From IMG/VR virus record IMGVR_UViG_3300044732_003257, positions 1 through 24,085 of that record: 24,085 nt of DNA; one strand, given 5' to 3'. The notes under the pieces were generated by a model. The model was not told the origin of the DNA. It made no database searches and worked only from the letters and a program-made list of their open reading frames with translations. The stretch comes from a virus. Positions 1,301 through 23,559 of the stretch are shown in pieces. The stretch's first letter is position 1. Each line of letters opens with the position of its first letter. The position numbers and the translations under genes were made by a program.

Positions 1301-3472
1301 TTATGCTCCCATTAAATTTTGTTTTAACTTATCGGTAACGGCTAAGAACTTAGTCGAAACTTTGGAAAGTAGGGGACAAATAAAACTTAATACTTTATCC
1401 TCAACTATTTTCAGTAATTCAGATTTATCATTTAATAATAGATCAGTTATTGAATTTCTTAAAATATTTTCTAGATGGTTTGTTTCGCCACCTTTTGAAG
1501 TTTTTTGTACGATAACAGTATCAACAATTGTTCTAGCAATTAATTTAGCTATTGCATTGCAATCACCGGATAAAATTTTAGCAATATTATCCAAATCAAA
1601 GTTTGCAAGACCAGTAGCTAATAAGTCACCAATTATACTAGTTTTTGAAACTCCTAAAGTTTCCAACACCCATCGCACTAATGTTTCTTGCACAGTGTCA
1701 GCAAATCCACCAAAACCTAATTTACCTAAGAAACTAAACCAATTTTCTTGTATTAATTTTTCGCTAAAACCTTGTTCTCTTAAGAAATTAGCTTCACTAA
1801 TCATTGAATTAAATAATTTGTTATAGTCAGCTTGTGTCTTTAAATTACCAGTACTTTCAGCTAAAACATATAATCTATTTTTAATTATTTTATTCTCTTT
1901 AAGAAGCCTTTGTTTTTTTGTTTTTTCTGTAATTAAATTTTCTTTAATCAATTTTTTTAGGTTTGTTGTTGATTTTCCTTCTACTCTTGTCTCTCTTCCA
2001 AAACTTTTACAAGTTTCACTAACATCTTTAAAATCAACTTTATATGCTCCAGCATTTGAACTTTTTAACTCTTCAATCATTCTAGCTGCGGATTTTTCTT
2101 GTTTAGTTCTAAACATTCTATTGAAGAATGCTTCATCTTTATTGGTATATTTACACTGATTGTTACATGCCATAAGAAGATTTTTAACCCTGTTAGTGTT
2201 TCTACTATCAATTTGTTTTTGTTGTGTAAAATTTGTATACCATTCACGTAATGCTTTTACACAATTTTCATCGGTTACATCTTTTATTTCGGTACTTATT
2301 TTGCCAGTATCAATACCAGAAACAACATCAGGCCAAATATAAGCTTGTGGTCCTGAACCAATTGTTGTTGGTAAAGACGGTATTAGATCAATAAGATTTA
2401 TTTTATTAAATCTTTTTATATCAACATTAGGATTGGCTAATTGGTCTATTTCATTATCAGGATAGTTTATGAAATCCGATACCTCCTTTACGGTATTTAT
2501 CCCTAATTTTCCAACATCAAGCGTTCCGTATTCATTTGGATAAAGTTTTTTTAAAAGTTCAACACCTTTTTTAAAAAAATTAAAATAGACTGACTGATAA
2601 CCATCGTTAAGTGCTCGTACAATCCCTTTGTTTATGTTAATTAAAATGGACTCATCCGGTTTTCCGGTATCGGGTTCATCACTAATTTGTAACCAATTAA
2701 AATATTTTCTATAATTCTCCTTAGTTGCTGGAGAACTTGATGTTTGTGTAGGCGTTGCAGCAGAGCCAGTTGTGGCTGTTTGTGTTGGTTTTTGACTTGT
2801 ACTTTTTCTTGTGAGAATAATTTGTTCGATAAGCGTCTCATCCACATTTTTACCCTCAATAGCAAGTTCCGGTAATTCATAGGTACCCTCATCAACTTGA
2901 AAAGAACCCTTTTCATTCTTTTGCCATTTAACCCATCTCCAAGGTGCGGCGGGTTTATCCCCTTTTAAGAAATAATAATCACCAATTCCATCAGAATCTC
3001 CGTCAATTAAATTTGCCGGTTTTTTATACGTCCAATGGCCTGACTTTATTTTTTTTATTTCACCACCACTAAAAAGACCTTTTTGTTCATTTTCTTTAAA
3101 CCACTTATATTCTTCCGATTGTTCTGTACCAGTTCCGGTTTCTGGTGTGCTAAGAGTAGATCCACCAGATTTTTTATATTCCTCACCGTATGAATTCCAA
3201 GCGGCGGTTGTTTTTGGACCAAATCTTCCATAACCACCACGTCTTTCTAATTTTCCTGTGGGAACCCAACCCGGATGGTTTTGGTCTAACCAATCTTGGA
3301 ATTTTTTAACACCATCAACATTTCCTAAAAATTCGGGAATTGTTGATGTTGGAGTTTGTCGTCTGCTTTGACCTGATTCACCGGCGCGTGGGGGTGGTTG
3401 TTTTCGAGGGGGTGGTTGTTTTCTATTGTCAGTTGAAGGTGTCGCTTCTTGCTCTCTTAAATTTCTTTTCAT
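1301..3472 (-). CDS. Large phage protein with peptidoglycan-binding-like N-terminal domain
   Basis: A 723-residue protein. It starts MKRNLREQEA, a short leader with an LRE site, followed by a Pro/Arg/Gln-rich linker. Residues about 45-100 resemble a PG_binding_1 fold: VKKFQDWLDQNHPGWVP and YGRFGPKTTAAW, comparable to DGKFGPETNAAV in the lysin at 15712. A Thr/Ser/Gln-rich low-complexity linker lies near residues 222-255. The central part is unrecognised. Near residues 515-560 there is a lysine-rich run with several (L/I)xE tripeptides (LIKE, LITE, LLKE, LAES), then a hydrophobic helical C-terminus of about 150 residues (WFSFLGKLGFGGFADTV, IAKLIARTIVDTVIV). It follows the 240-residue gene by 20 bases and ends at a terminator, so it is last in its unit. 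I infer a virion-associated or injected protein; no enzymatic motif is seen outside the binding-like domain. Confidence 0.8.
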   Translation of the reverse strand: MKRNLREQEATPSTDNRKQPPPRKQPPPRAGESGQSRRQTPTSTIPEFLGNVDGVKKFQDWLDQNHPGWVPTGKLERRGGYGRFGPKTTAAWNSYGEEYKKSGGSTLSTPETGTGTEQSEEYKWFKENEQKGLFSGGEIKKIKSGHWTYKKPANLIDGDSDGIGDYYFLKGDKPAAPWRWVKWQKNEKGSFQVDEGTYELPELAIEGKNVDETLIEQIILTRKSTSQKPTQTATTGSAATPTQTSSSPATKENYRKYFNWLQISDEPDTGKPDESILININKGIVRALNDGYQSVYFNFFKKGVELLKKLYPNEYGTLDVGKLGINTVKEVSDFINYPDNEIDQLANPNVDIKRFNKINLIDLIPSLPTTIGSGPQAYIWPDVVSGIDTGKISTEIKDVTDENCVKALREWYTNFTQQKQIDSRNTNRVKNLLMACNNQCKYTNKDEAFFNRMFRTKQEKSAARMIEELKSSNAGAYKVDFKDVSETCKSFGRETRVEGKSTTNLKKLIKENLITEKTKKQRLLKENKIIKNRLYVLAESTGNLKTQADYNKLFNSMISEANFLREQGFSEKLIQENWFSFLGKLGFGGFADTVQETLVRWVLETLGVSKTSIIGDLLATGLANFDLDNIAKILSGDCNAIAKLIARTIVDTVIVQKTSKGGETNHLENILRNSITDLLLNDKSELLKIVEDKVLSFICPLLSKVSTKFLAVTDKLKQNLMGA

Positions 3473-3492
3473 CTGGTTTACGTTATTTTGTT

Positions 3493-4215
3493 TTATTGAA
3501 TAAAGATAAAATTGGTCCCATCATATTTAATTTGATAGCCATCGATATTATAAACATCACCATTAACAGTAACATCGTCTTTAGTTGTCTTATCAAATCC
3601 GCTATATTCTTTTTTAAGTGCAGTTATAAATCCTGTTTTTTTAGCGTCATCAGCAGCGGCTTTTTCGGCAGTGGCTTTAGCTTCTTCTTCGGCTTTAGCA
3701 TCGGCAGCGGTTTTAGCATCGGCAGCGGCTTTAGCGGCTTTAGCTTCATTATCGTATTTCTCTTTAAGATCTAAGAAGGTATCCACAAAATCAACCCACT
3801 CATCATCATAGTCAATATCTGAATCAATCCATTCAAAGAAAGTATCACCTTCACCTTCACTATATCGGTTTTCAAAAAAATACTTTACCGCACATAAGTC
3901 ACCGAAAGTATTATTAGATAATTTATCTAATCCTTCTTTTACTTTATCTAAATCAGTACCAGTCCAAAAACCTTCAAATGCATCATAAAAAATACGAGCT
4001 AATTGTTGGATTTCATCGTTGGTAAGGATTTTAGTTTCTGCGATACCAGTAGTACAAGCATTTAAAACATTTTTGACGGTATCGGCATGACCCTCATTTA
4101 TAAGACCTTTAACTTTTTTTTCATTTTCCGTTAACGTCATATCATTTCTATATGACATAAGAAGTTTAATTCTTTCAAGAGACTCATTTGCCTCATTTAA
4201 TTTATTTTTTTCCAT
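3493..4215 (-). CDS. Unknown phage protein with Ala/Lys/Asp/Glu-rich helical tract
   Basis: A 240-residue acidic protein. The N-terminus MEKNKLNEANESLERIKLL holds an LNE-A site like T4 internal-head-protein leaders, followed by further LTEN and LINEG sites by residue 42. Residues about 75-125 (FEGFWTGTDLDKVKEGLDKL, then DLCAVKYFFENRY) have a GTD-helix pattern slightly reminiscent of annexin-like repeats, which is weak. Residues about 155-195 are a low-complexity A/K/D/E tract, probably one long helix, encoded by GC-richer repeated triplets than its surroundings. The C-terminus looks beta-rich (VNGDVYNIDGYQIKYDGTNF). A TATTTATA element lies 16 bases before the ATG, and the 723-residue gene follows 20 bases downstream, so the two probably share a transcript. 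Function unknown. Confidence 0.75.
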   Translation of the reverse strand: MEKNKLNEANESLERIKLLMSYRNDMTLTENEKKVKGLINEGHADTVKNVLNACTTGIAETKILTNDEIQQLARIFYDAFEGFWTGTDLDKVKEGLDKLSNNTFGDLCAVKYFFENRYSEGEGDTFFEWIDSDIDYDDEWVDFVDTFLDLKEKYDNEAKAAKAAADAKTAADAKAEEEAKATAEKAAADDAKKTGFITALKKEYSGFDKTTKDDVTVNGDVYNIDGYQIKYDGTNFIFIQ

Positions 4216-4231
4216 CTTTTAAAGTTTTTTA

Positions 4232-4239
4232 TATAAATA
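4232..4239 (-). promoter_or_regulatory. Candidate phage promoter element TATTTATA
   Basis: Sense-strand TATTTATA with 16 bases to the ATG at 4215. The same octamer type at the same distance precedes genes at 5898, 15346, 15712 and 17890. Confidence 0.5.
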
Positions 4240-4246
4240 TATCGAC

Positions 4247-5122
4247 TTATAATAAAGTATTTGCTTTACCGCGAGTTAATCCGGTGGACCATTTACTTTT
4301 TTGATCAATCGTATTTGCTTTACCCCTTTTTGTTTGATAAGTGTCCGACCATTTTTGTTTTGGGTCAATTGAATTAGCTGGACCTCTCTTTACTCCAGTT
4401 TCCCACTTTGTCACAGCAGGATAGCTTGGTTTACCCCCCTCAGTTGATTGTTCTCCCAATTCCGAAGTAAATTTATCATAATCAAGAAATTCGTTTTTTA
4501 ATTTTTTTGCATCCCGAAATGTTGCAAAATTAGAATACATTCTATGACTATGTTTTTGGTTATATTTTACAAATAAATCTTTATTTTTACTTAATGGCGT
4601 ATCAAAAAGAAAAATACTAAATTTAACTTTAAGGTCATCCGGTAATGTCTTAATATTTGTACTTTGTAACCATAAATCACCAAAAACTTTAAGATTATTG
4701 GGTAATTTTTCTATTGGCGTTACGTTTAAATCCAAATAACCCCCCACGGAAAGATTATCTCCCAAGGATGTTATTGGGGTTCCAACCAAATCCAAATAAC
4801 CCCCCACATGAAGATTATCCGGAAGGGATGTTAAATTTTTGCAACGATACAAATCCAAATAACCACCCACATGAAGATTATCCGGTAAAGATGTTATTGG
4901 TGTATTTGACAAATTCAAATCACCATCAACAACAATCTTTTCATAAAACTTATTATGATATTTTGCAAATTTTTCAGAATCCCCGTCAAATGCCTTAAAT
5001 AATCTAAAATTAAATTCTTCTTCATCTGTGTTCCAAACATTTTCATCTTCTTCTTGCTCAAGAAGAACTTGCTTTATAATGTTATAAAGGTCGGATTCAG
5101 ATAATTTGATTTTTCTTTTCAT
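4247..5122 (-). CDS. Leucine-rich-repeat-like protein with targeting-like N-terminus, copy A
   Basis: A 291-residue protein. Residues 1-23 (MKRKIKLSESDLYNIIKQVL then LEQ) form a predicted amphipathic helix bounded by LSE and LLE sites. Residues 25-65 are shared almost residue for residue with the paralogue at 13824. Residues about 66-175 are five to six repeats of roughly 20 residues of the type LPDNLxVGGYLDLxxTPITS, an LRR-like solenoid. Residues about 238-291 are a separate tail of three approximate repeats built on W-(x)-TGxxRGxANTIDxKxK, which the paralogue lacks. No enzymatic motif is seen; LRR-like solenoids usually bind other proteins. The gene follows the 109-residue gene by two bases, so it is probably co-transcribed from the element at 5914. 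Function unknown; I infer a packaged or structural protein from the leader. Confidence 0.85.
   Translation of the reverse strand: MKRKIKLSESDLYNIIKQVLLEQEEDENVWNTDEEEFNFRLFKAFDGDSEKFAKYHNKFYEKIVVDGDLNLSNTPITSLPDNLHVGGYLDLYRCKNLTSLPDNLHVGGYLDLVGTPITSLGDNLSVGGYLDLNVTPIEKLPNNLKVFGDLWLQSTNIKTLPDDLKVKFSIFLFDTPLSKNKDLFVKYNQKHSHRMYSNFATFRDAKKLKNEFLDYDKFTSELGEQSTEGGKPSYPAVTKWETGVKRGPANSIDPKQKWSDTYQTKRGKANTIDQKSKWSTGLTRGKANTLL
4250..4411 (-). repeat. Three-unit coding repeat at the C-terminus of LRR copy A
   Basis: Residues about 238-291 repeat a unit of about 20 residues: ETGVKRGPANSIDPKQKW, DTYQTKRGKANTIDQKSKW, and a shorter STGLTRGKANTLL. The units are diverged at the DNA level, so this is an old or selected repeat rather than recent slippage. 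Confidence 0.7.
4612..4927 (-). repeat. LRR-like coding repeats, copy A
   Basis: Tandem units of about 63 bases encode LPDNLxVGGYLDL-type repeats. The DNA of the first units is close to identical: an ACATGAAGATTATCCGG core recurs on the plus strand near 4805 and 4868. Confidence 0.7.
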
Positions 5123-10983: not shown

Positions 10984-11103
10984 TAAAAAATTTTATGAAA
11001 AAAAAATTGCAACGATTTTATCCTGTTAGACGGGAAGAGCTTATCGTTATTAAGTTTCGCTTATTATACTAACACAATTTTTAATTCATAATATGTTGTT
11101 TTG

Positions 11104-11191
11104 TACCCCCACCCAGATTCGAACTGGGAACGTTTCTTATGTTTTCCTAGGCTTCTAAGACCTAATGCTTTACCAATTTGCACATGGGGGT
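11104..11191 (-). tRNA. tRNA-Leu (anticodon UAG)
   Basis: Minus-strand cloverleaf of 88 bases: acceptor ACCCCCA pairs with TGGGGGT (discriminator A), D-stem TGC/GCA, anticodon stem TAGGT/GCCTA with loop CTTAGAA (anticodon TAG), a long type II variable arm of about 19 bases as expected for Leu, and T-arm CCCAG-TTCGAAT-CTGGG. CCA is not encoded. It reads CUA-type leucine codons, which an AT-rich phage uses more than many hosts. Confidence 0.9.
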
Positions 11192-11236
11192 GTACACAAC
11201 AAAGTTAAAACTTTATTATCATTTTTCCAAATTTTG

Positions 11237-11308
11237 AGGTCGAAGTGAGAATCGAACTCACGTAGAAAGTTTTGCAGACTTCCGCCTAAACCACTCGGCC
11301 ATTCGACC
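11237..11308 (-). tRNA. tRNA-Cys (anticodon GCA)
   Basis: Minus-strand cloverleaf of 72 bases: acceptor GGTCGAA/TTCGACC, discriminator U (typical of Cys), anticodon stem GAAGT/ACTTT with loop CTGCAAA, T-arm GTGAG-TTCGATT-CTCAC. CCA is not encoded. It is 10 bases downstream of the tRNA-Arg. Confidence 0.9.
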
Positions 11309-11310
11309 AT

Positions 11311-11826
11311 TTATTCTGTACCCCCCGAAGGACTTGAACCCTCACCAACTGAGTCGAAATCAGATATGCTATCCGTTACACTAGAGAGGTGTTTTTTAAT
11401 AATTTTTTCACATTTTTGTTTCCAGTTTGATGATAAACAAGAAATCGGTGTTATTTTTGTTAGTTGGTTTATTAATCTTATTTCTTGTGGATTATCATCA
11501 AGATGAAAAACGAACCCGTTACCATTTTTATCGAACCACCAAGCTTTTGGTTCATGATTTGTAAATATTATACGTTCTCTAGGAATGCCCAATTCAGTTG
11601 CTAATGGGAATAAATCATCCTCATTTGACCACCAAAGGACACCATCATCTCTTTTAAAAGTGTCATCATCAGGGTATTTTTTTCTAAAAAACTCCCTTGG
11701 ATTTTCGGGTCTTGATGTTACAATCCAAATCTCAATATTTAGATTTTGAATTAGTTCTTTACAATATTTTTGAATAGATTCAAAATGACCAAGGCAATCA
11801 TCAAAATCAAAGCTTACTTTTATCAT
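11311..11826 (-). CDS. HAD-like phosphatase with a tRNA-encoded C-terminal tail
   Basis: A 171-residue frame. Motif I is SFDFDDCLG (D7, D9), motif II is WIVTSRPE (T37/S38), a candidate motif III Lys is in HEPKAWWFDK (K94), and motif IV is FHLDDNPQEI (D110, D111). This is the layout of small HAD hydrolases such as 5'-nucleotidase/NagD-like phosphatases; the substrate is not readable. The start overlaps the stop of the T9SS-type gene as ATGA. Residues 146 to about 169 are encoded by the tRNA-Arg gene (11319-11390) on the same strand and look unlike a conserved domain (SSVTDSISDFDSVGEG), so the catalytic domain ends before them. Either the tRNA captured the end of the gene or the original stop was lost. 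The transcript probably carries the three tRNAs as its tail. Confidence 0.8.
   Translation of the reverse strand: MIKVSFDFDDCLGHFESIQKYCKELIQNLNIEIWIVTSRPENPREFFRKKYPDDDTFKRDDGVLWWSNEDDLFPLATELGIPRERIIFTNHEPKAWWFDKNGNGFVFHLDDNPQEIRLINQLTKITPISCLSSNWKQKCEKIIKKHLSSVTDSISDFDSVGEGSSPSGGTE
11319..11390 (-). tRNA. tRNA-Arg (anticodon UCG), inside the 3' end of a CDS
   Basis: Minus-strand cloverleaf of 72 bases: acceptor ACCTCTC pairs with GGGGGGT (two G-U pairs; discriminator A), anticodon stem CTGA/TCAG with loop TTTCGAC (anticodon TCG), T-arm GAGGG-TTCAAGT-CCTTC. The outermost anticodon-stem pair is T-T. CCA is not encoded. The whole gene lies within the open frame of the HAD-like protein. Confidence 0.85.
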
Positions 11827-13340
11827 CTTATTAAATTAATATTACCAATTTTAAATATTCTATTTTCACCAATTTTACCATTAAATTTATAAATATAAAC
11901 ATCATTTTGACAACTAGAACCATCCCACCATTCATTTTGGTCATAAAATTTATATACAAGTTCTCCCCATCGATTATAAATCTCCATTTCAAAATCATCT
12001 ATTTTTGATATACTCGATACTTTAAATACATCATTAACAAAATCAAAATCGGGTGAAAATGAATTTGGAATATAAAAATCACCGCACGATTCAGAATAAA
12101 CCGTTATTGTTGTGATATTTCCAACACATCCAAATTCATTTGTTTCATAAACAGATAGTTCATTTTGAAATTCACTTATATTTGGAAAATTAACTGAGAT
12201 GTTATTATCGTTATTTTGTTGCAGTTCACCATTTAAATTCCAAGTATATGTTGAATTGGTTGGTCCAGTTGTGGTATATATCAAATTTCTATCAACATTT
12301 GAACAATTTATAAAATTGTTTATACCTAAAATAAGAATATCATTTGGATTTTGATTTACGACAATTAAAATGGTGTCGCTATTTTGACAACCAAAATTAT
12401 CCGTATATGTATATTGAATCCAATTTGTACCTAATTGCGGAGAAAAAATAGGTCCAATATTCCAAGTACCACCAATAGGGAATGCTTGCATTTGAACTGG
12501 AGAATCGTTAAAACATAATGTATCGATTGGATTAATCGTTATATTTGGTAATGGTGATACATTTACCGTGAAAATAGTTGTATCTAAACAACCATTTATG
12601 TTTTCTTCAATCATTTCAACTTGCTGCACACCAATGGTATTCCATGTTATTGTATATGGGTTTGTTGGATAAAATAAAGAAAGATTTGTTGCATCACTAA
12701 GTTGGTGTGTTGTATTATCACCAATACAGATTGTTTGATTTAATGGAGTTACTGCTATACTTTCAAAATCAATGGGTGTGTTTGTACCATTAAAAACGTT
12801 AAATGCTGTTGGTGTACAACTGTTAGTACCCCAAGAACCCCAAGTACCATCAGCACCAGCGGTTATTTGAATTAATATGTTATCAGATGAACAACTCTCA
12901 ATCACTGTTGTTGAAAAACAAAAACTCCAAGTACAATTACCAAAATCACCCCAATCATTACCCGGATTTCCATCAATAACACCACCTTGGTCCGTTTCAA
13001 AAAACCACCCCGGTCCAACGGAAATTCCCGTGGAGGACGAAGTTATTGTACCCGGAATCCAAATCCAATTTCCTGAACCACCGTTACAATTTGCGGGTGC
13101 CGCTTGAGGTAAAGGGGGGGTTAAAGATGAACTTAAATTAATTTCAAATCCTTCTAACCAATTGGTGTTAAAATTTAAACCACTCCAACCAGTCATTTGA
13201 TAACAAACATTGATTACCGTTCCAGATGAATATTGACCATTAACCGGAGGGGGTGTTATTGTATAGGATTCAATTCCTGTGCATTGACTAAACGCAAAAT
13301 TACTTAATATAAAACAAATTAAAATTAATATTTTTTTCAT
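11823..13340 (-). CDS. Secreted T9SS-type protein with gliding-motility C-terminal (CHU_C) domain
   Basis: A 505-residue protein. Residues 1-18 (MKKILILICFILSNFAFS) are a signal peptide with cleavage likely before Gln19. The N-terminal domain is Trp/Gly/Cys-rich (GSGNWIWIPGTI, WSFCFSTTVIESCSSD), followed by PKD/SprB-like beta segments with paired cysteines (ENINGCLDTTIFTVNVSPLP; DNFGCQNSDTILIVV; NEFGCVGNITTITVY). Residues about 419-505 form a CHU_C domain: FYIPNSFSPDFDFVNDVFKV, MEIYNRWGELVYKF, WWDG, NDVYIYKFNG, and the usual end GNINLIR. In Bacteroidota this domain sends proteins through the type IX secretion system to the cell surface. In a phage it may alter the host surface or block superinfection; a virion role is less likely given the signal peptide. 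It lies between endonuclease VII and the HAD gene on one transcript. Confidence 0.9.
   Translation of the reverse strand: MKKILILICFILSNFAFSQCTGIESYTITPPPVNGQYSSGTVINVCYQMTGWSGLNFNTNWLEGFEINLSSSLTPPLPQAAPANCNGGSGNWIWIPGTITSSSTGISVGPGWFFETDQGGVIDGNPGNDWGDFGNCTWSFCFSTTVIESCSSDNILIQITAGADGTWGSWGTNSCTPTAFNVFNGTNTPIDFESIAVTPLNQTICIGDNTTHQLSDATNLSLFYPTNPYTITWNTIGVQQVEMIEENINGCLDTTIFTVNVSPLPNITINPIDTLCFNDSPVQMQAFPIGGTWNIGPIFSPQLGTNWIQYTYTDNFGCQNSDTILIVVNQNPNDILILGINNFINCSNVDRNLIYTTTGPTNSTYTWNLNGELQQNNDNNISVNFPNISEFQNELSVYETNEFGCVGNITTITVYSESCGDFYIPNSFSPDFDFVNDVFKVSSISKIDDFEMEIYNRWGELVYKFYDQNEWWDGSSCQNDVYIYKFNGKIGENRIFKIGNINLIR
11826..12086 (-). other. CHU_C / type B T9SS sorting domain (within the secreted protein)
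   Basis: Codes for residues about 419-505. Diagnostic parts are IPNSFSPDFDFVNDVF, IYNRWGELVY, WWDG and the terminal NINLIR, in the order and spacing of the family. Confidence 0.85.
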
Positions 13341-13823: not shown

Positions 13824-14414
13824 ATGAAGAAAATCAAAATAACAGAATCTGACCTTTATGAAATCATAAAGCAAGTTCTTCTTGAGCAAGAAGAAGAAAA
13901 AAAAGTTTGGTATACAGACGCTGAAGAATTTGAATTTAGATTATTTAAGACATTTGATGGGGATTCTGAAAAATTTGCAAAATACCATAATAAGTTTTAT
14001 GAAAAGATTGTTGTTGATGGTTATTTGGATTTGTCAAATACACCAATAACATCTTTACCAAACAACATTGAGGTTGATAGTAGTTTGTGGTTAAGAAGCA
14101 CTCCAATAAAATCATTACCAGATAATCTTAAGGTTGGTAAAGATTTAGATTTAAAAAATACATTAATAGAGAGCTTACCAGATAATTTTATAGTTAGGGG
14201 GTATTTGGATTTAAGACATACCCCAATAAAATCATTACCAGATAATCTTAAGGTTGGTAAAGATTTAGGGATACAATTTACTGAAATAAAAACTTTACCT
14301 GATAGTTTATTTGTAAAAAATAAAATATATATTTATTTTACACCATTAAATGATAATGATGAGTTGGTTAAAGAGTATATGAAATATTATGATTTTGACC
14401 GATATAGACCATAA
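13824..14414 (+). CDS. Leucine-rich-repeat-like protein with targeting-like N-terminus, copy B
   Basis: A 196-residue paralogue of the protein at 4247-5122. Residues 1-66 (MKKIKITESDLYEIIKQVL, then LEQEEE, then FAKYHNKFYEKIVVDG) are nearly the same in both, and the DNA across the leader is almost identical for close to 30 bases. Residues about 66-175 are five LRR-like units (YLDLSNTPITSLPNN, LWLRSTPIKSLPDNLKVG and so on). It ends DFDRYRP without the repeat tail of copy A. A 45-base stretch (14103-14147) recurs exactly at 14223-14267, a sign of recent duplication or conversion within the gene. It leads a plus-strand pair with the holin candidate 18 bases downstream. Function unknown. Confidence 0.85.
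   Translation: MKKIKITESDLYEIIKQVLLEQEEEKKVWYTDAEEFEFRLFKTFDGDSEKFAKYHNKFYEKIVVDGYLDLSNTPITSLPNNIEVDSSLWLRSTPIKSLPDNLKVGKDLDLKNTLIESLPDNFIVRGYLDLRHTPIKSLPDNLKVGKDLGIQFTEIKTLPDSLFVKNKIYIYFTPLNDNDELVKEYMKYYDFDRYRP
14103..14267 (+). repeat. Exact 45-base repeat inside LRR copy B
   Basis: 14103-14147 and 14223-14267 are identical and 120 bases apart, spanning two LRR-like units (PIKSLPDNLKVGKDL in both). Confidence 0.8.
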
Positions 14415-14432: not shown

Positions 14433-14741
14433 ATGGGAATATTTGAATTAGTTAATACATTATTTATTTTAGCATCTTTAGTTGTTGTTGGTGCTGAATA
14501 TGCTAGCAAATACACAAAAGTGAAAGGAACGCTAGCACAAATCCAATCATGGGTTATTTCAATTTTGCTTGGTATCTTTTGTGCTTGGTTAAATTTTGGA
14601 ATATTTAACGGAGTTGATACCAAAGGTGGAATTTTGTATGGTGTCTTAATCGGATTAATATCAAATGGTATATTTGATATGTCATTCGTTAAGCAACTCT
14701 TAACAATGATTGGCGCTAGAGCAGAGAAATTAGAGGATTAA
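14433..14741 (+). CDS. Probable holin (small membrane protein)
   Basis: A 102-residue protein with three hydrophobic segments: VNTLFILASLVVVGAEYA (about 7-24), WVISILLGIFCAWLNFGIF (about 40-58) and GILYGVLIGLISNGIF (about 66-81), then a polar tail (GARAEKLED). The W-V-I-S-I-L and L-I-SNGIFD pattern fits small phage holins that pass endolysin through the inner membrane. It is followed by an L,D-transpeptidase-like gene and, 1 kb on, by a multi-domain lysin. The stop overlaps the convergent gene's stop. Confidence 0.65.
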   Translation: MGIFELVNTLFILASLVVVGAEYASKYTKVKGTLAQIQSWVISILLGIFCAWLNFGIFNGVDTKGGILYGVLIGLISNGIFDMSFVKQLLTMIGARAEKLED

Positions 14742-15346
14742 ACAATATCTTTACTTTCAATTAAAGTGTAGGTAAATCTATTACCGTGGATAGCTCTTGC
14801 TTTATTTAAAATAACCATGAATTCGTTAAAGTCTTTAACTCTTTTAAATACAGAGCAACCCTCACTCCAATCGTTTACAAATTGAGATTCTGTGGTTGGA
14901 TTTGATCTATGAATATTAATACCAAAAACCCCCTCTTGAATTGTTGTGGGATTCATATCAAACTTCATATCTTTATTTTTATCACGATAAACTTTAACGG
15001 GTTTATCTTGACATAAAGCGTCATATTTGCCTTGGTGTTTTCTAATGATATAAGCACTTCTATATTGTTCCGGAACCAAAATTGCAACACCTCTGCTGTT
15101 GCTAAATTCTAGGACGGCTTTTTTTCCGGGGTCGGTTGTTATCGCCCATTCATGGTATTTCCAAACACCATTTTCTTTATATGATAAAGTTAAAATATCG
15201 TCAAAAACGTTTGTTACTCTACTTCCCGGACCTGAATTTCTAATACTAACAACGTTAACATCAAATCCTTTATTTGCATCATCATTAAACCAAACATAAC
15301 TTTTTGAGTTAACCGCTTTTTCTATTTTTTCTTTTGAATATAACAT
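14738..15346 (-). CDS. L,D-transpeptidase/YkuD-like protein
   Basis: A 202-residue protein. The key stretch is GINIHRSNP, then VNDWSEGCSVF: H146 and S161-E-G-C164 match the HX(14-17)[S/T]xGC signature of YkuD-type L,D-transpeptidases, with Cys164 as the nucleophile. A basic/acidic strand-rich part precedes it (YHEWAITTDPGKKAVLEF). Such enzymes make or cut peptidoglycan cross-links. There is no signal peptide, so it would need the holin or virion entry to reach the wall. Transcribed against the holin with a four-base overlap of the two 3' ends; its own TATTTATG element lies 17 bases upstream. Confidence 0.65.
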   Translation of the reverse strand: MLYSKEKIEKAVNSKSYVWFNDDANKGFDVNVVSIRNSGPGSRVTNVFDDILTLSYKENGVWKYHEWAITTDPGKKAVLEFSNSRGVAILVPEQYRSAYIIRKHQGKYDALCQDKPVKVYRDKNKDMKFDMNPTTIQEGVFGINIHRSNPTTESQFVNDWSEGCSVFKRVKDFNEFMVILNKARAIHGNRFTYTLIESKDIV

Positions 15347-15421: not shown

Positions 15422-15664
15422 ATGTCAATATTAAAAGAGGAAATCAAAGGAACAAAAATTTACAACGAAGTTCAATCATCAAATATTGTGAGGACTGAAT
15501 ATGACACGCAAAATGAGACAATGATTGTCGAATTTAAAAATGGTAGTAGGTTTGAATATGAAAAAGTTCCCCATAAAGTTTATTCACAATTTAGATTAGC
15601 AGAATCTCAGGGTAAATTCTTTTCAACTTCAATATCAAGAGGATATAAGTATAAAAAAATTTGA
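15422..15664 (+). CDS. KTSC domain protein
   Basis: An 80-residue protein that is essentially one KTSC domain: SSNIVRTEYDTQNETMIVEF, then KNGSRFEYEKVPHKVYSQF, then AESQGKFFSTSIS with the closing KTSC-like Ser. KTSC domains are small beta-rich modules of unclear role, often found in phages and next to lysyl-tRNA synthetase-like proteins. TATTTTAA lies 17 bases before the ATG, a weak variant of the phage element. It sits alone between a divergent gene and the lysin gene. Confidence 0.8.
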   Translation: MSILKEEIKGTKIYNEVQSSNIVRTEYDTQNETMIVEFKNGSRFEYEKVPHKVYSQFRLAESQGKFFSTSISRGYKYKKI

Positions 15665-15711: not shown

Positions 15712-17838
15712 ATGAGTGAAGAGTCAAAAATAATTTCATCGTTTTCCTTACAAGAAACATTAAATCCAAAAATTTGGGATAATTACGCAAATCCCAAAAA
15801 AGCTTCACTTAAGCCCGAAATAAGAAAAAAACTTCTTGAAATCGCACATGAATTTATGGATTTCATTGATGTTGAATTTTTTGTTGATGATATAATCTTT
15901 ACAGGTTCATTATCTAATTTTAACTGGTCCGATTTCTCTGATGTTGATTTACATCTTGAAGTTGATTTTATGCAATTTGATAAGGATTCCGTTGAATTAT
16001 ATCGAGAACTCTTTAATTTAAAAAAATTATTGTTCAATACAAATCACGATATTACAATAAAAGGATTTGAGGTTGAGCTTTATGTACAGGATATAATTGA
16101 ACCCCACACCAGTGGGGGTATTTATTCTGTGCTATATGATGAATGGGTTGTAATTCCCGAAAAAAAGGACGTTACAATTGATAAAAATCTTTTAAGAAGA
16201 AAGATAACAGCTTGGACCAAAAAGATTGATGAGGTTACCGAACAAGTTAAAAATGATGACTACGATGAGTCAATTATTTTAATTAAAGAATTAAGGGATA
16301 AGATTAAAAAATATAGAAAAGCGGGTCTTGAAGATAAGGGAGAATTTTCTTATGAAAATTTGGTTTTTAAATATTTGAGAAGGGGTAAGTATATTGAAAG
16401 GTTAATAGATTTAAGTCATAAGTTAAAGGATAAAAAATTATCTTTGGAGTCGTTGAATGAGTCATTAATTAAAGAGGTTCAAATTATAGATATTTCATCA
16501 GGATCTAGTTACCCAACAGGTAAAAAATTTAAGAATAAAGAATATTTTATGGTACACCACACCGCAGGTTCAGGTAACGCTGAAGATGTGATGAGGGTTT
16601 TAAATAAAAGAGGTCTATCGGTTCAATGGATTGTTGATAAAGAAGGTAAAATTTATAGGTCATTACCACAAGATACGGTTGGTGCTCACACCGGTTCAAA
16701 TGCAAAGATGAAAACAGTTAAAAATTCAAATACTGAAGGTGTTGAGGTTATCGGTTTAGATGATAATGACATAAAAAGAAGACATGATGCGGATATAAAA
16801 TCGGGTATTTTACCCAAACAAGCGGAAGCTGTGAGGCAATTGGTGAAATATTTGGGTTATTCACCAGATCAAGTTGTTGGACATGGTGATGTCAGTACAA
16901 ATAAACAAGCAACTGAAGGGAAGACAATTAAAGAATATATTATACAAAACTGGGATAAACCAATTAGCGGAAAATTTGATATATCTAATTTATCAACAAA
17001 TAATATAGAAACCAAAAAAGAAAAAAGTCTTTTTGATAGAATTTTATTGTTTTTAGGGCTTGGTGAAGAAGCAACTTCAAGTGAAAAAGATTTTACCAAG
17101 GATTTGGAAGAACTTATTAACTCAAATAAGGAGTTAAAATGGGAAAAAACCGGAAGATTAGAATATGATAATGATATTGAAATTTTACAAAGTGTTCTTC
17201 AGTTGTTGGGTTATTCTTTACCGGAATGGGGTATTGATGGAAAATTTGGTCCAGAAACAAATGCTGCTGTTATAAATTTTCAAAAGAAAAATAGCTTAAA
17301 CCCCAATGGTGTTGTGGATAAAAACACTCTAAAAACCATTCTTAAAGAATTATCAAAAATTGATTTAGATAGAAAAAAAATAGATGGAATTCAAAAAGAA
17401 AAGAAAATGGTAAAAATAGTTGCAACAGACAACAAGAACAAAATTCTAAAATTTTTAATGGATAAAGGATTAACAATAGAACAAGCTTCTGGTATTGCGG
17501 GTAACTTACAAGCGGAGTCAAATTTTAATCCAACCGCTGTTGGCGATAGTGGAACATCGTTGGGTATCGCACAATGGCATAAAAGCAGAAAAGAAAATTT
17601 AATCGGCTTTTGTAAATCAAAAAAACAAGACTCCGAATCGTTAGAATGTCAGTTAGATTTCTTATGGGATGAATTAACCACAAAATATTCAAATGTATTA
17701 TCATCAATTAAATCAAGCGAAAATGCTAGCACATCTGCTGAAATTTTTGCTTCAAAATATGAAAAACCAAGAAGTACCGATTATAGTAGGAGAATAAAAT
17801 TTGCGGAAAAAATATACAATGATGCATTAATTTCATAA
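15712..17838 (+). CDS. Nucleotidyltransferase-amidase-PG-binding-lysozyme fusion
   Basis: A 708-residue protein with four domains in order. Residues about 60-150: nucleotidyltransferase superfamily, GSLSNFNWSDFSDVDLH (G65-S66, D78, D80) and FEVELYVQD for the third acidic residue. Residues about 275-412: N-acetylmuramoyl-L-alanine amidase (amidase_2), with MVHHTAGSG (H282/H283), GAHTG (H326) and VVGHGDVSTNK (H391). Residues about 486-548: PG_binding_1, ILQSVLQLLGY and GIDGKFGPETNAAVINFQ. Residues about 576-706: phage tail lysozyme-like, IAGNLQAESNFNP (E602 probable catalytic) and GTSLGIAQWH. The linker at 243-256 (LSLESLNESLIKEVQ) holds LNE and IKE sites like those in leader peptides, and the start has LQE. 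The lytic part cuts host peptidoglycan. What the transferase does is unknown; the linker suggests it may be cut off. No signal peptide. Confidence 0.9.
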   Translation: MSEESKIISSFSLQETLNPKIWDNYANPKKASLKPEIRKKLLEIAHEFMDFIDVEFFVDDIIFTGSLSNFNWSDFSDVDLHLEVDFMQFDKDSVELYRELFNLKKLLFNTNHDITIKGFEVELYVQDIIEPHTSGGIYSVLYDEWVVIPEKKDVTIDKNLLRRKITAWTKKIDEVTEQVKNDDYDESIILIKELRDKIKKYRKAGLEDKGEFSYENLVFKYLRRGKYIERLIDLSHKLKDKKLSLESLNESLIKEVQIIDISSGSSYPTGKKFKNKEYFMVHHTAGSGNAEDVMRVLNKRGLSVQWIVDKEGKIYRSLPQDTVGAHTGSNAKMKTVKNSNTEGVEVIGLDDNDIKRRHDADIKSGILPKQAEAVRQLVKYLGYSPDQVVGHGDVSTNKQATEGKTIKEYIIQNWDKPISGKFDISNLSTNNIETKKEKSLFDRILLFLGLGEEATSSEKDFTKDLEELINSNKELKWEKTGRLEYDNDIEILQSVLQLLGYSLPEWGIDGKFGPETNAAVINFQKKNSLNPNGVVDKNTLKTILKELSKIDLDRKKIDGIQKEKKMVKIVATDNKNKILKFLMDKGLTIEQASGIAGNLQAESNFNPTAVGDSGTSLGIAQWHKSRKENLIGFCKSKKQDSESLECQLDFLWDELTTKYSNVLSSIKSSENASTSAEIFASKYEKPRSTDYSRRIKFAEKIYNDALIS

Positions 17839-17889: not shown

Positions 17890-18063
17890 ATGCCAGAAAC
17901 AGTATCAGCAGGAACTTATAATTATGTAATACAAGATTGTTCTTGTACGGGTAATACACAGTTTTATTCGCCACATCCGGAATACGTAAATCCAAAAAAT
18001 GGCGATACCGTGGTTCAAATCTCCTCCATTGAGCTTGGTGGCTTTAATGGATTAAATAATTAA
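17890..18063 (+). CDS. Small hypothetical protein
   Basis: A 57-residue open frame: starts MPETVSAGTYNYVIQDCSCT, then FYSPHPEYVNPKNGDTVVQI, ends GGFNGLNN. It contains a CSC pair and looks beta-rich. No family recognised. Coding is supported by the phage promoter element 16 bases upstream and the 11-base gap to the next gene, whose A-rich leader follows the stop directly. Confidence 0.65.
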   Translation: MPETVSAGTYNYVIQDCSCTGNTQFYSPHPEYVNPKNGDTVVQISSIELGGFNGLNN

Positions 18064-21789: not shown

Positions 21790-23559
21790 ATGCAAGGATT
21801 AACAAAAGAGCAATTAGCGTTAGAATATGTTAGATGTTTAAAGAGTACGCCTTATGCACTTAAAACGTACTTACAAACGTATGATAATACCGTGCAAAAA
21901 TATGTACCTCTTGAGTTATTTCAGGATCAAGTACAATTGATTAATGATTATGATACTTATGAAGAAAATATCGCATTAAAGTATCGTCAGGCTGGTGTGT
22001 CAACAGCAACTGCTGGTTGGGCATCAAAAATACTTGCATTTGCTAAAAAAGAGAAACCTGAAAAAATTCTAATTATTGCCAATAAATTGGACACTGCCGT
22101 TGAGATGGCAAACAAGGTTAGAAGTTTTATTGAACAATGGCCCAAGTGGGTTGGTGTTGAGTTTTCGGATGAGAAAAATGCTGCGAGACACTTTAAACTA
22201 AATAATGGAAGTGAGATTAAAGCGGTTGCAACGTCTAAAGACGCTCTTAGAGGTTATACACCAACAATTCTAATATTTGACGAAGCGGCTTATATTGAAG
22301 CGGATGATGATTTTTGGGCAGCATGTATGGCATCACTTTCTACCGGGGGTAAAGTTATTGTAATATCAACACCAAACGGATTTGACCGAATTTATTATGA
22401 AATTTATGATCAATCAATTCGTGGGATGAACAATTTCAAAATCACGGAAATGTATTGGTATAGGGATCCTAGATATACAAAAGATTTATTCTTGGTCAAG
22501 ACAAATGATATTGTGGATTATCTTTTAAATAGGGAAGAAAGAAAAGATCTAGAAATTCTTGATTTTTCACATATAGCACCAAATGAAAGAGATTTTGTTT
22601 TAATAAAAGATTATATCAGTCAAGGATTCAAACCATGCTCAACTTGGTTTGAAAACATGGTTAAAAAATTAAAGTTTGATAGAAGAAAAGTTGCTCAGGA
22701 ATTGGATTGTCAATTTTTAGGTTCTGGTGATAACGTTATTGATTCGGTAATTCTTGAGAACATTAGAGAAAATCAAATCTGTGAACCAAAATATAAAACA
22801 ATGGGGGGTTCCTTATGGGTATGGAAAGAACCAGAACTTGGTCATAAATACATTATGGGTCTGGATGTAAGTCGCGGAGACTCAGAGGATTTCTCAGCAT
22901 TTCAAATAATTGATTTTGATAGTAGAGAACAAGTAGCTGAATATCTTGGAAAGGTTCCACCTGATGTGATGGCTGAAATAGCTTATAAATGGGGAACAAC
23001 ATATAACACATATATTGTTATTGATATCACAGGGGGTATGGGTGTGTCAACTGCTAGAAAATTACAAGAATTAAATTATAAGAATTTATATGTTGATGGA
23101 ATTGAGCTTGGAAATAAGTGGAAATATGACGCAAAGGCGCTTGATAAAATTCCCGGTCTTAATTTCAATAATAAACGAGTGCAAATCATCTCATCGTTTG
23201 AAGAAGCTTTAAGACATAAATTTAAAGTTTACAGTAGTAGATTATTAAATGAATTAAATTCTTTTGTTTATATAAATGGTAGACCTGACCATCAAAAAGG
23301 TCGTCATGATGATTTAATTATGTCAATTGCTATGGCAATTTATGTTTCAGAATTTTCATTTACACAATTAGAAAAAGTAACTGAACATACGAAAGTTATG
23401 ATTGAATCGTGGCAAGTTAATACATATGAACCAAAACAAACTTCACAATTCTTTAATCCTAGCATATCTTTTACGGACGATAAAAGTATATATAGAAATA
23501 ACCCAACAAAAAAAGATTATCAACAACATTCTTGGTTATTTGGTGGGATAAGAAGGTAA
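21790..23559 (+). CDS. terL: Terminase large subunit (T4 gp17-like)
   Basis: A 589-residue packaging motor and nuclease. ATPase part: the Walker A-like loop YRQAGVSTATAG (about 65-76) lacks the usual Lys, which is seen in some terminases; Walker B is TILIFDEAAYIE (about 159-170, D164/E165); the coupling motif is VIVISTPNG (189-197). Nuclease part (RNase H-like): IMGLDVSRGDSEDFSAF (Asp near 358), YIVIDITGGMGVS (near 413), and GRHDDLIMSIAMAIY (near 502-516) supply the acidic cluster. It cuts concatemeric DNA and drives it through the portal. Starts 29 bases after the previous gene behind an AT-rich stretch, and is followed 13 bases on by portal, as in many T4-like phages. Confidence 0.95.
   Translation: MQGLTKEQLALEYVRCLKSTPYALKTYLQTYDNTVQKYVPLELFQDQVQLINDYDTYEENIALKYRQAGVSTATAGWASKILAFAKKEKPEKILIIANKLDTAVEMANKVRSFIEQWPKWVGVEFSDEKNAARHFKLNNGSEIKAVATSKDALRGYTPTILIFDEAAYIEADDDFWAACMASLSTGGKVIVISTPNGFDRIYYEIYDQSIRGMNNFKITEMYWYRDPRYTKDLFLVKTNDIVDYLLNREERKDLEILDFSHIAPNERDFVLIKDYISQGFKPCSTWFENMVKKLKFDRRKVAQELDCQFLGSGDNVIDSVILENIRENQICEPKYKTMGGSLWVWKEPELGHKYIMGLDVSRGDSEDFSAFQIIDFDSREQVAEYLGKVPPDVMAEIAYKWGTTYNTYIVIDITGGMGVSTARKLQELNYKNLYVDGIELGNKWKYDAKALDKIPGLNFNNKRVQIISSFEEALRHKFKVYSSRLLNELNSFVYINGRPDHQKGRHDDLIMSIAMAIYVSEFSFTQLEKVTEHTKVMIESWQVNTYEPKQTSQFFNPSISFTDDKSIYRNNPTKKDYQQHSWLFGGIRR

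Follow-up and report, generated by a model that had tools for sequence, protein, structure and literature searches.

A phage nucleotidyltransferase joined to a peptidoglycan hydrolase, a candidate precursor of two virion enzymes

The 24,085-nt stretch of viral DNA analysed here (IMG/VR record IMGVR_UViG_3300044732_003257, hereafter the window) encodes at 15712-17838 on the plus strand an intact open reading frame of 708 codons (ATG at 15712, stop at 17836-17838), whose 708-aa product combines an N-terminal nucleotidyltransferase (NTase) with a lysin. At a probability of about 0.5, this fusion is a precursor of two virion enzymes that would be packaged, cut by a prohead protease and delivered at infection. 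From the match to PHROG 36119, an alignment and a structural model, the NTase core and its C-terminal helical domain can be assigned to residues 1-247 (15712-16452), followed by Amidase_2 (N-acetylmuramoyl-L-alanine amidase, residues 277-399, 16540-16908, Pfam E 1.8e-10), PG_binding_1 (residues 487-542, 17170-17337, E 1.1e-14) and Phage_lysozyme2 (residues 573-703, 17428-17820, E 1.1e-34). The amidase and peptidoglycan-binding modules match the endolysin phrog_1493, and the lysozyme is homologous to the tail lysozyme gp13 of phi29, with the glutamate of the QAES/QSES motif aligned. As a 90%-identical NTase is joined likewise to a lytic half on three contigs from other samples, the fusion is not an assembly artefact. 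Hence, the fusion noted in the first-pass annotation is real, whereas its view of the combination as unexpected holds only in part: the fusion is less isolated than assumed, the NTase usually being a separate gene, which became attached to wall hydrolases on several occasions.

The N-terminus alone did not give a significant NTase match in Pfam, but it covers PHROG 36119 nearly end to end (E 2e-37; residues 13-245 versus profile positions 21-247 of 247), and NTP_transf_2 is matched by 25 of 30 aligned close relatives (best value 5e-6). Modelled by AlphaFold on 30 aligned sequences (pLDDT 91, pTM 0.82), the domain shows an NTase-like fold followed by C-terminal helices. Invariant in the 30-row alignment are the GS motif (G65-S66, 15904-15909), the catalytic acids D77-x-D79 (15940-15948) and E122 (16075-16077) as the third acid. 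Among 192 relatives, fused and unfused, G65, D77, D79 and E122 are likewise invariant together with several residues of the helical part, with serine or glycine found at position 66. The acidic triad, for which the first-pass annotation had pointed to structural modelling, is thus in place, and its conservation argues for an active NTase. On these grounds the domain is assigned to the pol-beta nucleotidyltransferase superfamily, and nucleotide transfer is predicted. ANT/AAD aminoglycoside adenylyltransferases, MntA antitoxins and the AMPylase DrrA share the pol-beta NTase fold, but they were matched weakly (E 2e-4 to 1e-2 at best, low TM-scores), so that the substrate cannot be read from them. 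Foldseek and VIA-align gave weak or partial fold matches, the helical-bundle rows being uninformative, and matches to defence-system models were weak as well. Phage proteins of 346-884 aa that contain an NTase are listed in a viral structure library, one under the name amidoligase. A link to T4 nrdC.11, annotated as nucleotidyltransferase, found no support (hhalign probability 0.1).

When compared with viral contigs at full length, the 708-aa protein found no relative, whereas the NTase domain alone retrieved 214 in an IMG/VR scan and an alignment-based scan of the same database yielded more than 570, a lower bound. A single scan of genomes from bacteria and archaea confirmed no NTase relative; apparently, PHROG 36119 represents a large, unnamed and phage-specific NTase family. 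It is filed as a family of unknown function, with members recorded as unknown or hypothetical and a few as nucleotidyltransferase. Its more remote members come from Maribacter phages, Lak phages, cyanophages and Caulobacter phage Cr30. Usually, the gene is encoded alone and adjoins head genes; in cyanophages and Cr30 it lies among early and replication genes. The clade of the window comprises 105 distinct NTase proteins, 94 stand-alone (nearly all of 240-257 aa) and 11 fused.

In eight mapped loci, the NTase is preceded by a KTSC-like gene of about 80 aa and usually followed by a small gene ending GGFNGLN and by head-cluster genes, then by terminase and portal where the loci extend that far. 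The window keeps this order, with the KTSC-domain gene at 15422-15664 (+), whose counterpart immediately precedes the NTase in every gene-mapped relative of the clade, a 57-aa gene ending GGFNGLNN at 17890-18063 (+), found downstream in most relatives listed, and a T4-type terminase large subunit at 21790-23559 (+; profile matches) marking the head-gene cluster. Elsewhere in the window, an intein-like start seems to interrupt a ClpC-like gene (3-1142, -) after the Walker A sequence GEPG, and in-frame stops precede the next reading frame; in relatives the gene is unbroken and encodes about 670-690 aa. The window also has three genes for tRNAs (Leu, Cys and Arg) at 11103-11390 (-), the last overlapping the end of the reading frame 11311-11826. 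A 505-aa protein with a signal-peptide-like start (11823-13340, -) bears a CHU_C type IX secretion domain (E 2.8e-13), which points to a Bacteroidota host.

The first-pass annotation had suggested looking for the same fusion in other phages, and NTase-wall hydrolase fusions were indeed found, with varying partners. In the window, the NTase precedes Amidase_2, PG-binding and lysozyme2 modules; in L002-L004 it precedes M23, PG-binding and lysozyme2, in L005, L016 and L074 PG-binding, M23 and a glucosaminidase below the Pfam cut-off, in L006 PG-binding and M23, in L014 and its kin PG-binding and a glucosaminidase (again below the cut-off), and in L101 M23. The NTase of L286, from a separate phage group, is followed by Phage_lysozyme, and the C-terminal half of L287 looks lytic by eye, albeit without a Pfam lysin match. 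In a tree built from 192 NTases, fusion status changes at least four times, three of these changes being forced by well-supported branches, so the NTase has acquired wall-cutting modules of different kinds in at least three or four independent events. Moreover, the Amidase_2 of the window is replaced by Peptidase_M23 in its closest relative L004, to which DNA identity is 83.6% up to position 16460, inside the E250 codon, and is then lost and regained at 17014. This break indicates exchange of the catalytic module with its left border at an LNE step. The L005 fusion keeps the complete leader MKKTLQEELRRNHELLYGNKLNEQ of a free lysin, ending LNE-Q, and the same leader heads a free lysin in G006 (MKKTLTEELVRMHSMMYGNQIVEQ).

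As noted in the first-pass annotation, the linker of the window protein (LSLESLNESLIKEVQ) holds exactly two (L/I)xE steps, the triplet at which T4 gp21 cleaves (PMC9026906). These candidate prohead protease sites are L248-N249-E250 (16453-16461) and I253-K254-E255 (16468-16476). The nearby LSLE was rejected as a cleavage site, since it has serine at P3 and forms the conserved C-terminus (DKxLS(L/V)) of NTases that stand alone. Each of the 11 distinct fusions in the clade has an (L/I)xE step within 12 residues past the NTase end, and L286 and L287 show LNE at the corresponding position, so that the motif stands at the junction, just past the conserved NTase end, in 13 of 13 distinct fusions. 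The triplet is weak and common, arising by chance in K/E/L-rich proteins, and the NTase domain itself holds several; in the chance comparison, (L/I)xE was found in 0-22% of 20-aa windows from lytic halves and in up to 49% of those from NTase domains. When followed by Q, A or S, it occurs in 0-7% of the windows from lytic halves, as expected if these are to survive cleavage. In the proteomes of three relatives, the first 45 residues of the proteins have about 2.5 to 5 times the density of this extended motif seen in the remainder.

A gp21-like Peptidase_S77 is encoded in nine of nine large relatives tested and in seven of ten records of a second, T4-like clade; a protease gene was not found on the fusion contigs L286 and L287, both short, nor is one visible within the 24-kb fragment of the window. 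In T4, the capsid-targeting sequence spans ten residues, with positions 4 and 7 mainly serving targeting and 8 and 10 processing (PMC9026906). The T4-type pattern (M..[FY]..[FY][LI].E) is absent from the window protein, which starts MSEESKIISSFSLQETLNP and whose NTase is also devoid of the long leader of its clade. Both absences count against a precursor that would enter the prohead. A strict pattern detects solely IPII and IPIII in T4 (2/247), missing IPI and Alt. With a looser one, 23 of 52 distinct second-clade NTases from freshwater and marine T4-like loci are matched at the N-terminus versus 21 of 633 other reading frames of the same loci; as these frames are not independent of each other, a p-value for this contrast serves as a rough indication. 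The Molly NTase starts MNLKTLVETDKS, and about a dozen other Molly proteins have a similar start; the Molly phage paper does not include virion proteomics. Leaders ending (L/I)xE-Q are common to many unrelated proteins, free lysins included, and are possibly the capsid-targeting and cleavage system of the window's clade. Two further window proteins (4247-5122, - and 13824-14414, +) share an N-terminal leader of the MKKIKLTESDLYRIVRKVLLEQ type with many others, among them 11 in the relative G001 (L178-L190), and leaders of further types likewise end in (L/I)xE-Q. On L264, a 791-aa protein (2537-4909, +) carries the T4-type targeting pattern, a long repeat region and then an NTase, with (L/I)xE steps on both sides of the latter, and looks like another polyprotein.

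Evidence from virions is available for a homologue 33% identical to the NTase domain of the window protein, gp156 of cyanophage S-CREM2. It was detected by mass spectrometry in the proteome of CsCl-purified virions with 6 unique peptides and 15.2% coverage and is listed there as hypothetical (PMC10665884 Table 3). This is a stand-alone protein at low coverage, contamination of the virions being possible, and it lies outside the targeting pattern itself (starting MKKLISELK). S-CREM2 proteins bearing the pattern were detected in virions at five of six, compared to 47 of 213 others (p 0.003), position 4 of the pattern having been relaxed on inspection of one sequence; restriction to F, Y or W gives four of four. 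The five detected (L343-L346) include a SAM hydrolase, an APH-like kinase and a cytidylyltransferase.

Taken together, the invariant acids, gp156 in virions, the NTases with a targeting pattern and Peptidase_S77 in relatives count for a packaged precursor, as do the (L/I)xE step in 13 of 13 fusions, the repeated fusion, the homology break at E250, the L005 leader and the N-terminal enrichment of the motif. Against it count the weakness of the motif, the early-gene location in cyanophages and Cr30, the 24-kb fragment without visible protease gene, and the stand-alone state, low coverage and possible contamination in the case of gp156. The main rival, which we consider unlikely, is a late-acting endolysin with the NTase as passenger or regulatory domain, released via the adjacent holin when infection ends, without involvement of the virion. 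It would fit with the holin-like gene (14433-14741, +, phrog_1299) and the second lysin-like gene (14738-15346, -, phrog_3000, with a weaker match to endolysin family phrog_33083) directly upstream. In addition, in G001, the closest relative of the window, an Amidase_2 protein of about 200 aa that is conserved across relatives (210801-211394, +; profile match from position 39) lacks the usual histidine of the first zinc site and looks degenerate, so that the fusion may have taken over lysis. However, the adjoining lysin-like gene and a separate Amidase_2 gene in nine of nine large relatives speak against it, as do an NTase homologue in virions and a lysozyme of the virion-associated gp13 kind, and a late endolysin leaves the (L/I)xE step borne by every junction unaccounted for.

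The presence of the NTase family in virions and the gp13-type lysozyme do not require cleavage and would equally suit a bifunctional protein, packaged or attached to the particle, whose NTase and lysin remain linked. With the motif at the junction of 13 of 13 distinct fusions, the protease encoded in relatives and lytic halves poor in the extended motif (0-7% of windows), such an uncut protein appears highly doubtful. Quite improbable, too, is a meaningless read-through at a place where lysis genes gather by the head cluster, joining halves unrelated in their job. The great majority of NTases do stand alone (94 of 105 distinct proteins), and L005 looks as if simple loss of a stop codon had run it into a tagged lysin gene. 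Against this reading, fusion arose independently three or more times, in different phage groups, with a wall hydrolase wherever the partner can be named and the motif always present, and the fusions persist while their catalytic modules are swapped.

If the window protein is indeed a precursor, it would be made late and enter the prohead core, where a gp21-like prohead protease would cut after LNE250 and/or IKE255, giving rise to the NTase and a peptidoglycan hydrolase consisting of amidase, wall-binding domain and phi29-gp13-type lysozyme. Both products would exit with the DNA at infection, the lysin aiding passage through the wall and the NTase possibly nucleotidylating a host or defence target, on the model of T4 Alt, which ADP-ribosylates host proteins. 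For the window protein, we infer packaging and cleavage, ejection, catalysis and the NTase target from these comparisons. As a wider and more tentative proposal, somewhat short of even odds, one family of T4-like phages would carry an active NTase in the virion, and several of its lineages would produce NTase and wall hydrolase as one polyprotein for the prohead protease to split, resulting in equal numbers of two injected enzymes.

Among known systems, T4 Alt and the internal proteins are the closest to the proposed way of working. Alt and IPI-IPIII are capsid-targeted proteins of the virion interior that are ejected with the DNA, with a gp21-type protease cutting at (L/I)xE, and Alt is an ADP-ribosyltransferase modifying host proteins (PMC9026906, PMC7411985). 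The window protein resembles them in having (L/I)xE at a domain border, whereas Alt has neither an NTase nor a joined lysin; lacking the targeting sequence, the window protein falls outside the T4-type capsid-targeted internal proteins. The stand-alone members of PHROG 36119 (S-CREM2 gp156, Molly gp26 and that of Cr30) share the same domain end to end and the same invariant residues, but usually comprise about 250 aa without a lytic half. With phi29 gp13 and virion-associated peptidoglycan hydrolases, the window protein has the C-terminal lysozyme and catalytic wall-hydrolase domains (Amidase_2, Phage_lysozyme2) in common, although gp13 is a tail lysozyme without NTase, and multidomain phage endolysins, likewise combining Amidase_2 and PG_binding_1, bear no N-terminal NTase in the papers searched. 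Accordingly, we file the protein among virion-delivered phage enzymes, the new element being the NTase joined to a lysin. Neither such a fusion nor an endolysin with an N-terminal NTase is reported in the papers searched, a scope outside of which subscription journals and preprints fell.

A widespread phage NTase family, with at least one member found in virions, thus carries an invariant active site that, by analogy with T4 Alt, suggests modification of a target at the start of infection. The fusions further suggest the prohead protease as a splitter of polyproteins into separate virion enzymes. Both the role of the family and the splitting are directly testable, with S-CREM2 as a cultured starting point. 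The probable cut site between the joined enzymes suggests that this large phage synthesises two tools for host invasion in one chain and splits them later.
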